A stretch of DNA of 64,000 nt from Arthrobacter sp. B6 (GTDB lineage: Bacteria; Actinomycetota; Actinomycetes; Actinomycetales; Micrococcaceae): positions 3,214,780-3,278,779 of the forward strand of contig NZ_KV467168.1 of the NCBI RefSeq assembly GCF_001663775.1, read 5' to 3'. Shown piece after piece: positions 2,767 through 4,659 of the stretch (position 1 is its first letter; each line of letters starts with the position of its first letter). The notes below the pieces were generated by a model. It was not told the DNA's origin, ran no database searches, and saw nothing but the letters and a program-made list of their open reading frames with translations. A program made the position numbers and the translations under genes.

Positions 2767-4041
2767 CTAGCTTGCCTTGGTGGCCTTGGCCGCTTTCGCG
2801 GCACGCTGCTGCGCCAGCCTGATCTCGAGTACCGCATCCAGTGCCTGCTGGACACGGTCCGAGGCGCCGGCCGCGCTGAACGCTTTCTGCGCTTCCTCCA
2901 GGTAGACCAGGGCTTCTTCCGACTCGCCGGCGGCCTTCAGCGACTTGCCCAGCAGGAGTGAAACCTCGCCGGCAGTGTGCTTGGCCAGCGCGTCTGACTC
3001 GGCGTGGATTTCCTGGAGCTTGTTGATGGCGGCCACGATGTCGCCGGTGAGGTAGAGCCATCGGGCGCGGATGAAGGCAACTTCCAGCTGGTCAGTCTTG
3101 TTGCCGCCCACGATGGACAGCGCCAGTTCGGCACGCTCGATGGAGGACAGCGTTTCCGGCTCCACGATCCCGGAGGACAGGCGCACCGCGGCCGAGGCCT
3201 TGTTGAACCGCGCCCACAGCTCGATGTCGTTGGCGGGGGAGAGCATCCTGGCGGCGCGTTCGTGGTATTTGATGCCCTCGGCGTAGTCATGCCGCATGAA
3301 GGCCACGTTGCCGATCACCCAGGCCACCTCGCCTGCGAGCTGGGACATCGAGTGCTCGTCCACCTGGTCGTTCATGGCCTGGCAGTACTTCCAGGCCTCA
3401 TCCAGCCGGCCGCTTTCGGCCAGGGCTCCGATCAGGGCACGGTGGGCGCCGATGATCAGCGTGGATCCCTTGGGCAGCTTGGCGCAAAGTTTTACGGCCT
3501 CCAGGGCGTGATCCACGGCGGTGCTCAGCTGGCCCTGGCCCTGGCAGATGCCGGCGAGCATCTGGCGGGCCCGCACTCCCAGGCCCACTGACTCGGTGGC
3601 CATGGGGTGTTCCAGCAGGTGCTGCATGATCTTTTGGCATTCCTGCCAGTTGCCCTGCTTGATCAGGCACTCGGCCTGCATGTAGGTCATGTTCCACCAG
3701 GCGCTGGTGTTCTTGCCTTCCAGCGCAATCTGCGCCGCGGCGGCGGCATGTGTGGCGGCCAGGGGGTAATCCCTGAGGTCCCACGCCTGGCGTGCGTAGA
3801 GTCCCGCGAGGACGTATTCGGCGTCGCTGACCGAGATGGGTTGGCTCCAGGCCTCCAGCGCCTTCGGCGCCAGCTCCAGCCTGCGAGCGAGCTCCTCGAT
3901 GACTTCGGCCGTGGGTTCCCTCCGGCCGGTCTCGAGCAGGGAAATATAGCTGGGGGAATACAGGTCCTTGCCCAGTTCAGCCTGTGTCAGCCCACGTTCG
4001 AGACGCTCCGCCCGGAGCTTCTCCCCGAATCCGTTGCCCAC
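2767..4041 (-). CDS. XRE-family regulator with TPR-like C-terminal domain (candidate peptide-responsive regulator)
   Basis: A 424-residue putative DNA-binding regulator. Residues about 4-65 form an XRE helix-turn-helix (EKLRAERLERGLTQAELG, then SYISLLETGRREPT). The remaining about 350 residues are alpha-helical with repeated A/L/Y spacing and many W/Y residues, as in tetratricopeptide repeat arrays. This layout and length match the RRNPP regulators such as NprR and PlcR, which bind short secreted peptides in the TPR groove. GTG 4041 is chosen because AGGAGG lies 7 nt upstream on the minus strand; longer in-frame starts lack a ribosome site. It is divergent from a secreted peptide gene at 4174, with shared control sites between. 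The peptide-receptor role is inferred, not shown. Confidence 0.8.
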   Translation of the reverse strand: MGNGFGEKLRAERLERGLTQAELGKDLYSPSYISLLETGRREPTAEVIEELARRLELAPKALEAWSQPISVSDAEYVLAGLYARQAWDLRDYPLAATHAAAAAQIALEGKNTSAWWNMTYMQAECLIKQGNWQECQKIMQHLLEHPMATESVGLGVRARQMLAGICQGQGQLSTAVDHALEAVKLCAKLPKGSTLIIGAHRALIGALAESGRLDEAWKYCQAMNDQVDEHSMSQLAGEVAWVIGNVAFMRHDYAEGIKYHERAARMLSPANDIELWARFNKASAAVRLSSGIVEPETLSSIERAELALSIVGGNKTDQLEVAFIRARWLYLTGDIVAAINKLQEIHAESDALAKHTAGEVSLLLGKSLKAAGESEEALVYLEEAQKAFSAAGASDRVQQALDAVLEIRLAQQRAAKAAKATKAS

Positions 4042-4082
4042 GGGATTTCCTCCTAATTCCGGACAGTCGTTGTCTTCAATGC

Positions 4083-4132
4083 TTGACAGTCCCTGTGGAA
4101 AACATTTTACAATGTATGTCAACAAGGACAGT
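4083..4132 (+). promoter_or_regulatory. Peptide-gene promoter with overlapping operator and GACAGT repeats
   Basis: A -35 box TTGACA (4083-4088) and a -10 box TACAAT (4108-4113) are separated by 19 nt, with the start point expected near 4120. A perfect 5+5 bp inverted repeat (ACATT at 4102-4106, AATGT at 4111-4115) overlaps the -10 box, which is a good place for a repressor or activator to act. GACAGT occurs at 4062-4067, 4085-4090 and 4127-4132. On the minus strand TTGACA occurs at 4122-4117, but I find no well-spaced -10 box for the regulator gene. Confidence 0.6.
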
Positions 4133-4173
4133 GCTGACTTTGTAACGAATCCGACTCGTATTGAGGAACTTAT

Positions 4174-4401
4174 ATGTTGAAGAAGATTGCAGCCGCAGCC
4201 GTACTGGCCGGGGCCCTGGCGTTTTCTGCGGCGGCCCCGGCCGTCCTGTCGGCAGGTTCCATCGCTGACTCCACCGGTGTATCGGTCGCCGTAGGCAACT
4301 GGCCGGATCCCATGTCCAAGAAGGACAAGGGCAAGGACAAGACCACGGACAGCGATACCACCTACACCACGTACGTGGGCAACTGGCCAGACCCGATGTA
4401 G
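4174..4401 (+). CDS. Small secreted peptide precursor with duplicated VGNWPDPM
   Basis: The 75-residue product has a classical signal peptide: MLKK, then an alanine/leucine-rich core to about residue 27 ending LSA. The mature part carries the octapeptide VGNWPDPM at residues 40-47 and again at 68-75, where it is the exact C-terminus. A very hydrophilic linker (SKKDKGKDK, then Thr/Asp/Tyr) separates the copies. The two copies differ in DNA at four codons and every change is synonymous. The ribosome site GAGGA lies 6 nt before ATG 4174. Codon use and the signal peptide make it a real gene despite its size. It resembles signalling-peptide precursors and lies divergent to an XRE/TPR regulator. 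A structural or antimicrobial peptide is an alternative. Confidence 0.8.
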   Translation: MLKKIAAAAVLAGALAFSAAAPAVLSAGSIADSTGVSVAVGNWPDPMSKKDKGKDKTTDSDTTYTTYVGNWPDPM

Positions 4402-4424
4402 TCACTCCTCACCAAAGGAGGCGA

Positions 4425-4457
4425 GGCCCCGGACCATGCAAGCCATGGACCGGGGCC
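4425..4457 (+). terminator. Terminator hairpin of the peptide gene
   Basis: GGCCCCGG (4425-4432) pairs with CCGGGGCC (4450-4457). Inside it CCATG pairs with CATGG around one A/A mismatch. A short T-containing stretch (ATTCCTTTG) follows. It lies 24 nt after the stop of the peptide gene. Confidence 0.75.
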
Positions 4458-4546
4458 ATTCCTTTGCCCGGAACAGGGACGCGGATGACACCGCCAGCCG
4501 GGCTTTGTGACAGCCGATAACAAATCGGCATCATGCCGGACGCACA

Positions 4547-4582: not shown

Positions 4583-4659
<77 letters not shown>

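Follow-up and report, generated by a model that had tools for sequence, protein, structure and literature searches.

The window analysed, 64,000 nucleotides of the Arthrobacter sp. B6 genome, carries a pair of divergent genes between positions 2,767 and 4,401. On the minus strand, a gene with a GTG start and a good Shine-Dalgarno sequence (2,767–4,041) encodes a 424-aa XRE-HTH/TPR regulator, the candidate receptor, which matches Pfam HTH_31 (E = 1.5e-11), HTH_3 (5.8e-11) and TPR_12 (6.6e-9). The longest ORF here (452 aa), which has a TTG start and extends as far as the promoter region, probably does not represent the gene. The plus-strand gene (4,174–4,401; ATG start, Shine-Dalgarno sequence GAGGAA at 4,163–4,168) encodes a 75-aa precursor with a leader, MLKKIAAAAVLAGALAFSAAAPA, in which a simple hydrophobicity rule recognises a Sec-type signal-peptide-like segment (residues 1–23; 4,174–4,242), and two copies of VGNWPDPM (residues 40–47, 4,291–4,314; residues 68–75, 4,375–4,398), the second forming the exact C-terminus. 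The divergent pair, the leader and both copies had been reported in the first-pass annotation and are confirmed from the sequence, as is the start of the interval given there, the end of which is that of the precursor gene. The precursor belongs to no Pfam family, and a match to NCBIfam TIGR04219 was discounted (E = 0.082; bit score 12.1, cut-off 105). Just 3′ of the precursor gene a strong hairpin (4,425–4,457, plus strand; −36.4 kcal/mol and z = −4.4 for the RNA folded from 4,399–4,475) suggests a single-gene transcript; it has no T run and is not listed by the terminator scan. The next annotated-like genes occupy the opposite strand and encode a tRNA-Pro (cgg; 4,583–4,659, minus strand), directly downstream of the precursor gene, and an ABC exporter.

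A contig scan identified at least 34 precursor loci, 33 in Arthrobacter or Pseudarthrobacter and one on a Saccharimonadia MAG contig (L032). A divergent regulator adjoins the precursor in 33 of the 34 loci listed, all but L032 (L014 is clipped by the contig end), and the 33 listed Arthrobacter/Pseudarthrobacter precursors combine a leader with 2–4 copies of GNWPDPM or GNWPDPA, save for two (L016, GNWPNPM; L031, a single GNWPDPV). A family search with the regulator found the precursor at all 30 of the nearest regulator loci, a set overlapping partly with the 34 above, and regulator homologues (E ≤ 1e-10) in 144 of 295 genomes of the family, representing 17 of 32 genera. Altogether 104 regulator loci were examined: 90 (L037–L126) plus 14 from an order-level search. 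A fixed rule (short ORF ≤700 nt upstream with at least two [GDS]xWP, or a single one close to the C-terminus) was satisfied at 70/104 loci, and in five control regions at 1/104, 2/103, 1/103, 2/104 and 1/104; a looser motif combined with a required Shine-Dalgarno sequence gave 75/104 (seven controls: 1/104, 0/103, 0/103, 1/104, 2/104, 1/104 and 0/104). The search for small WPDP-type ORFs beside XRE/TPR genes that the first-pass annotation had proposed yields, after reading by eye, a divergent small [GNDS]xWP-type (WP) peptide gene at 78 of the 104 loci, against 0–2 of ~104 in controls; by-eye additions were L039 (one copy, altered tail), L079, L113 (weak), L139, L140, L147, L150 and L152. The 78 loci span 14 genera of the family by genus code, or 13 without L113. 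The peptide-receptor pair is real, diversifying and present in every sampled genome of the genus.

Precursors carrying several copies (2–8) of the peptide make up 57 of the 78. Among 63 distinct GNWPDP precursors, 25 have two copies, 19 three, 14 four, three five and two a single copy, and 55 stop directly after GNWPDPx. Between copies within one of these precursors, 375 of 1,176 codon comparisons differ synonymously and seven degenerate copies were seen, a contrast favoured by locating copies through the exact GNWPDP string. Several codons differ between the two B6 copies, in every case synonymously, so a fresh duplication of DNA does not account for them. The peptide is thus conserved against synonymous change between copies. 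In L101 the copies are in tandem (KIGDWPN-KIGDWPN-IGDWPN-stop), and the hexapeptide repeat unit of tandem precursors makes hydrophobic-G-x-W-P-x the probable mature core, with P-M an extension in the genus of B6. The motif varies by receptor clade (GNWPDPM/A, GNWPDA, GIWPN, GEWPH, GDWPH, GWWPN, GNWPDR, GGSWPT and others), which, together with the frequency of pairing, supports the earlier proposal that GNWPDPM is the signal for the divergent TPR regulator; linked inheritance by itself would also make peptide and receptor change together. The leader and repeats alone would equally permit a small secreted protein with structural, cell-wall or antimicrobial (RiPP-like) WP repeats, merely controlled by the regulator, and the lack of a Pfam or convincing NCBIfam family fits such a protein. 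This reading is very improbable: the spacers of the precursors vary while the WP core persists, and an unsystematic look at the neighbourhoods read recognised no modification enzyme. Still less probable is ribosome arrest or attenuation by a WP near the C-terminus; 50/78 precursors end one or three residues after the last WP, which is in its favour, but up to eight internal copies would stall translation early, and in B6 the hairpin directly after the precursor gene and the opposite orientation of the downstream genes both speak against it.

The simple signal-peptide-like rule is satisfied by 72/78 precursors, and would be by L105 from an inner start. Leaderless precursors of 19–32 aa occur at L099, L107–109 and L136, and would be expected if the peptide regulated or timed its own receptor within the cell that makes it, with secretion incidental or absent. 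We consider this unlikely given the prevalence of leaders, and precursors with many copies better suit processing outside the cell. Four of the leaderless precursors (L107, L108, L109 and L136) are 19–21 aa long and end in VGDWPD.

The intergenic region contains an inverted repeat, TTGACA-N28-TGTCAA (4,083–4,122), a candidate operator whose left half resembles the −35 box of the precursor gene. It covers the apparent −35 to approximately the transcript start of that gene, which suggests repression, and the sigma-70 consensus scan lists no promoter at this repeat. The exact repeat is found upstream of the regulator in 41 of 85 HTH loci, all 41 peptide-paired, and extends to receptors with as little as 51% identity (L079). 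Five further HTH loci keep the 28-base spacing with altered arms (L085, L086, L096 and L097, paired; L098, unpaired); neither form is present at 14 paired and 25 unpaired HTH loci, nor was the repeat found at any of 19 loci with receptors that have no HTH. Within the genus the exact repeat occurs in 101/101 genomes, compared with 4/101 for a reversed control, and at 29 of 31 repeat loci a GNWP precursor lies within a distance of ~560 nt, while the remaining two are second sites. The repeat is therefore conserved and tied to the peptide gene. Additional sites are present in 11 of the 101 genomes, and in the seven of these that were listed the extra sites lack the shared middle, though three share one middle. 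At G1066:C1:1467199, G1124:C16:47718 and G1134:C13:18994, a second, near-identical TTGACA-N28-TGTCAA lies ~18–20 kb from the main site. The B6 genome has one exact site (two at one mismatch, versus three in the control), so that no second target is known by this pattern.

Regular absence of a peptide gene beside homologous regulators had been named in the first-pass annotation as evidence against the pairing. A recognisable neighbouring peptide is indeed missing for 26/104 receptors, but 18 of these are either second receptors in genus g7 (nine) or belong to one lineage of genus g24 (nine). In a midpoint-rooted tree of the TPR part of 72 receptors, which has several long branches that leave deep placements unsure, most positions are taken by peptide-paired receptors. 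The nine unpaired g24 receptors nest within a GIWPDS/WIWPDS clade, and eight of the nine unpaired g7 receptors are included and group with GNWPDPM receptors. The eight unpaired g24 receptors checked adjoin purC, as the B6 pair does, and the nine from g7 do not; since the g24 receptors are still beside purC, either they have lost their peptide or it is no longer recognisable.

In the same tree the 16 HTH-less receptors included form a single clade (99/97), whose neighbours (97/89) are HTH receptors paired with VGDWPD, and on this topology the HTH-less receptors appear to have arisen by one transition. All 19 HTH-less loci are paired with a WP peptide, and retention of the core beside receptors of this kind also argues against a merely structural or antimicrobial product. 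GGDEF and/or EAL motifs lie near 16/19 HTH-less loci, versus 0/47 HTH loci scanned, and were not seen at L101, L102 and L105 within 1.5–2 kb of flank. By Pfam, the neighbour at L114 contains GGDEF and EAL, and the gene on the opposite side HisKA, HATPase and GAF. These receptors would recognise peptides of the same class, with the adjoining GGDEF/EAL proteins as their probable targets. L114 and L118 are among the HTH-less loci close to GGDEF-EAL genes, with a histidine kinase containing GAF on the other side at L114. Two tandem receptor matches adjoin a single WP-peptide gene at L103, L104 and L105.

In the B6 regulator, the Pfam HTH_31 match delimits the helix-turn-helix DNA-binding domain (residues 5–64; 3,850–4,029, minus strand), the presence of which implies a cytoplasmic location. 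An AlphaFold2 model, built with 31 close sequences, is poor for this part (pLDDT <50) and predicts a TPR superhelix with a candidate peptide groove over approximately residues 70–420 (2,782–3,834, minus strand), mostly with pLDDT >80. Among the 50 structure matches listed, LGN/Pins is best (Z ~26) and Rap and NprR score 20.8–22.5; with LGN/Pins leading, the fold is not diagnostic of RRNPP receptors. The modelled receptor is of the peptide-binding type of TPR superhelix and has no specific RRNPP signature, and no RRNPP chain was recognised among 35 sequence matches to solved structures. All 47 representatives of peptide-paired receptors share G170, A216, G237, W241, N245, A247, P269, W276, A284 and R287. 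The 25 unpaired receptors retain W241 (24), N245 (20), W276 (25) and R287 (23), nearly the same degree of conservation, which therefore points to no peptide site in particular.

The RRNPP/RRNPPA receptors of Bacillota include those of the PlcR-PapR, NprR-NprX, PrgX, Rgg-SHP and AimR-AimP systems. The WP pair resembles these in having an XRE-HTH and TPR receptor (with an HTH-less branch) and an adjacent small, leadered precursor with a short peptide at or near its C-terminus. It differs in that the B6 pair belongs to another phylum, lacks an RRNPP sequence match among solved structures, has a conserved Trp-Pro core, is multi-copy as a rule and shows a divergent layout with a fixed inverted repeat. 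An RRNPP-type mechanism is most likely, whether or not common descent underlies the likeness. RopB systems reportedly use short leaderless communication peptides sensed inside the cell; leaderless forms are, by contrast, a minority in the mostly leadered WP family. The yeast alpha-factor precursor is secreted and, like the WP precursor, carries several copies of one pheromone, although that system is eukaryotic and relies on a membrane receptor. HTH-less receptors of the Rap type act on a phosphorelay response regulator. Rap-Phr likewise combines TPR receptors that have no HTH and secreted peptides, with the pheromone repeated in some precursors, and repeated Phr is described for phages phi3T and phi105 (PMC11343458); the WP family departs from this in the GGDEF/EAL genes near its HTH-less receptors and in having up to eight copies.

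Two further sources describe Bacillota as signalling with oligopeptides and Actinobacteria with small molecules (PMC10075063), and list gamma-butyrolactones and cyclic or modified peptides as signals of Actinobacteria, with no TPR receptor there (no match for 'tetratrico-'; PMC4748050). Actino-, Arthrobacter, Streptomyces and Micrococc- are not mentioned in PMC12700828. Searches of PMC (CC0/CC BY/CC BY-SA) with the exact peptide strings returned only an unrelated paper on influenza neuraminidase, and nothing among the literature matches listed from the same collection was recognised as a WP peptide-receptor system.

The gene pair, the multi-copy structure and the change of motif with receptor clade were observed directly, and we consider it highly probable that the 75-aa precursor and the divergent TPR regulator form a two-gene peptide signalling module, for which we infer the steps from export to output. 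The precursor would be exported by Sec and cut into short peptide copies ([VI]GNWPDPM in the genus of B6) with a putative core of hydrophobic-G-x-W-P-D. The peptide would re-enter the cell, probably via an Opp/Dpp permease (the B6 genome encodes 14 Opp/Dpp-type SBP_bac_5 binding proteins), and bind the divergent regulator, the only receptor in that genome at E ≤ 1e-10, on the concave side of its TPR domain. Probably as a dimer bound to TTGACA-N28-TGTCAA across the peptide promoter, the regulator would repress the precursor gene when free of ligand, and ligand binding would alter repression to give a self-reinforcing density signal. The pair has the look of a hormone-like peptide signal with an intracellular receptor, and versions of it recur across the family, each with its own Trp-Pro peptide. 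The multi-copy rule, HTH-less receptors near GGDEF/EAL, leaderless precursors and the viral micro-ORFs described below were not foreseen in the first-pass annotation.

Outside the family, the order-level search with the B6 regulator matched 18/297 genomes, three of them beyond the family, and a class-level search 7/394; the single match beyond the order showed no peptide. In a second family of the same order (f17; 7/149 genomes matched in its own search), two receptors (L141 and L142) are 26% and 29% identical to the B6 regulator, and WP precursors in three genera carry VGGSWPT two or three times (L161–L163) or end in LARGDWP-stop (L164, L165) or SDTWPA-stop (L142/L166). At L143/L167, L154 and L168 in this family no WP precursor was recognised. 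Plasmid homologues of the regulator (11 records from Streptomyces and Embleya, 25.7–27.2% identity) were set aside, with no WP peptide in the 4/11 read, and plasmids gave no match to the precursor. Phage records gave two matches to the regulator, in the HTH part only, and viral contigs contained no regulator relative by the pattern method and no whole-precursor relative.

The GNWPDPM pattern was found in 10 viral contigs, followed directly by a stop codon in 8/10, or in 5/7 distinct contigs once duplicates (L201 = L202, L203 = L209, L204 = L208) are removed. Four distinct contigs have a leaderless 10–12-aa ORF that ends in IGNWPDPM-stop, with a Shine-Dalgarno sequence and ATG directly upstream: MRIGNWPDPM at L201 (5,129–5,161), L204 (1,970–2,002) and L207 (2,202–2,234), all on the plus strand, and MMSTIGNWPDPM (MMST-IGNWPDPM) at L203 (2,415–2,453, minus strand). 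The three MRIGNWPDPM ORFs differ synonymously only, and some of these contigs are related, so the four are not independent events. L210 has a 53-aa form ending in VGNWPDPM, and the motif is not at the ORF end in L205 (possibly GTG-IGNWPDPM plus five residues) or L206. Such micro-ORFs are too short for whole-precursor or regulator searches and surfaced only with a short pattern; a stricter viral pattern recovers L201 and L202 only. GNWPDP followed by a residue that is not M occurs in seven further viral contigs, three at a true stop, of which L215 (MMNDGNWPDPS-stop) resembles the micro-ORFs and the others do not. Other peptide alleles gave five matches in viral contigs, none with a Shine-Dalgarno sequence and ATG directly upstream.

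Terminase genes are present on L207 and L204, that of L207 being ~60% identical to Arthrobacter phages (40 of 141 records, and the top 19 of the 30 matches listed). The 2.2 kb around the L203 site matches six records, all Arthrobacter phages (66% over 20% of the query), and the nearest 301 bases match 106, of which 102 are Mycobacterium and two Arthrobacter phages, via a PnuC-like gene; the neighbourhoods of L207 (301 bases) and L210 gave no match among phages. The host of the micro-ORF viruses is likely Arthrobacter-like. In four isolate Arthrobacter phage records (85–100% of each read) no such micro-ORF was found, one startless chance string apart, and the reversed control gave two matches in 240,713 bases. 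ATG-NNN-IGNWPDPM-stop in 26/206 genus genomes was rejected as a sign of prophage: 20/20 loci examined adjoin the inverted repeat and are the C-terminal ends of host precursors.

Some related phages seem to encode the bare signal themselves, which lends independent support to the signalling module. ORFs of 10–12 aa that retain the peptide alone speak against a structural or antimicrobial role for the repeats, and their lack of a leader is the second point in favour of action within the producing cell. If binding is confirmed, a trait in every sampled genome of a common soil genus would amount to a language of peptides whose code is short and readable, which has natural variants, may lead to c-di-GMP and is spoken by phages. 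The wider proposal, of a Trp-Pro pheromone family that is independent of RRNPP, has direct DNA binding and, through GGDEF/EAL partners, c-di-GMP as outputs and is exploited by relatives of Arthrobacter phages through leaderless copies of the host signal that would be read in the infected cell with no need for export, with two copies on a Saccharimonadia MAG contig, is in our judgement evenly poised between holding and failing. Those two copies of VGNWPDPM, one at the exact C-terminus, lie in a leaderless 56-aa ORF (L032, 2,755–2,925) with no regulator in 7.9 kb; the ORF has 63% GC, against 48% for the contig. Either an episymbiont's mimicry or chimerism of the contig could account for it.
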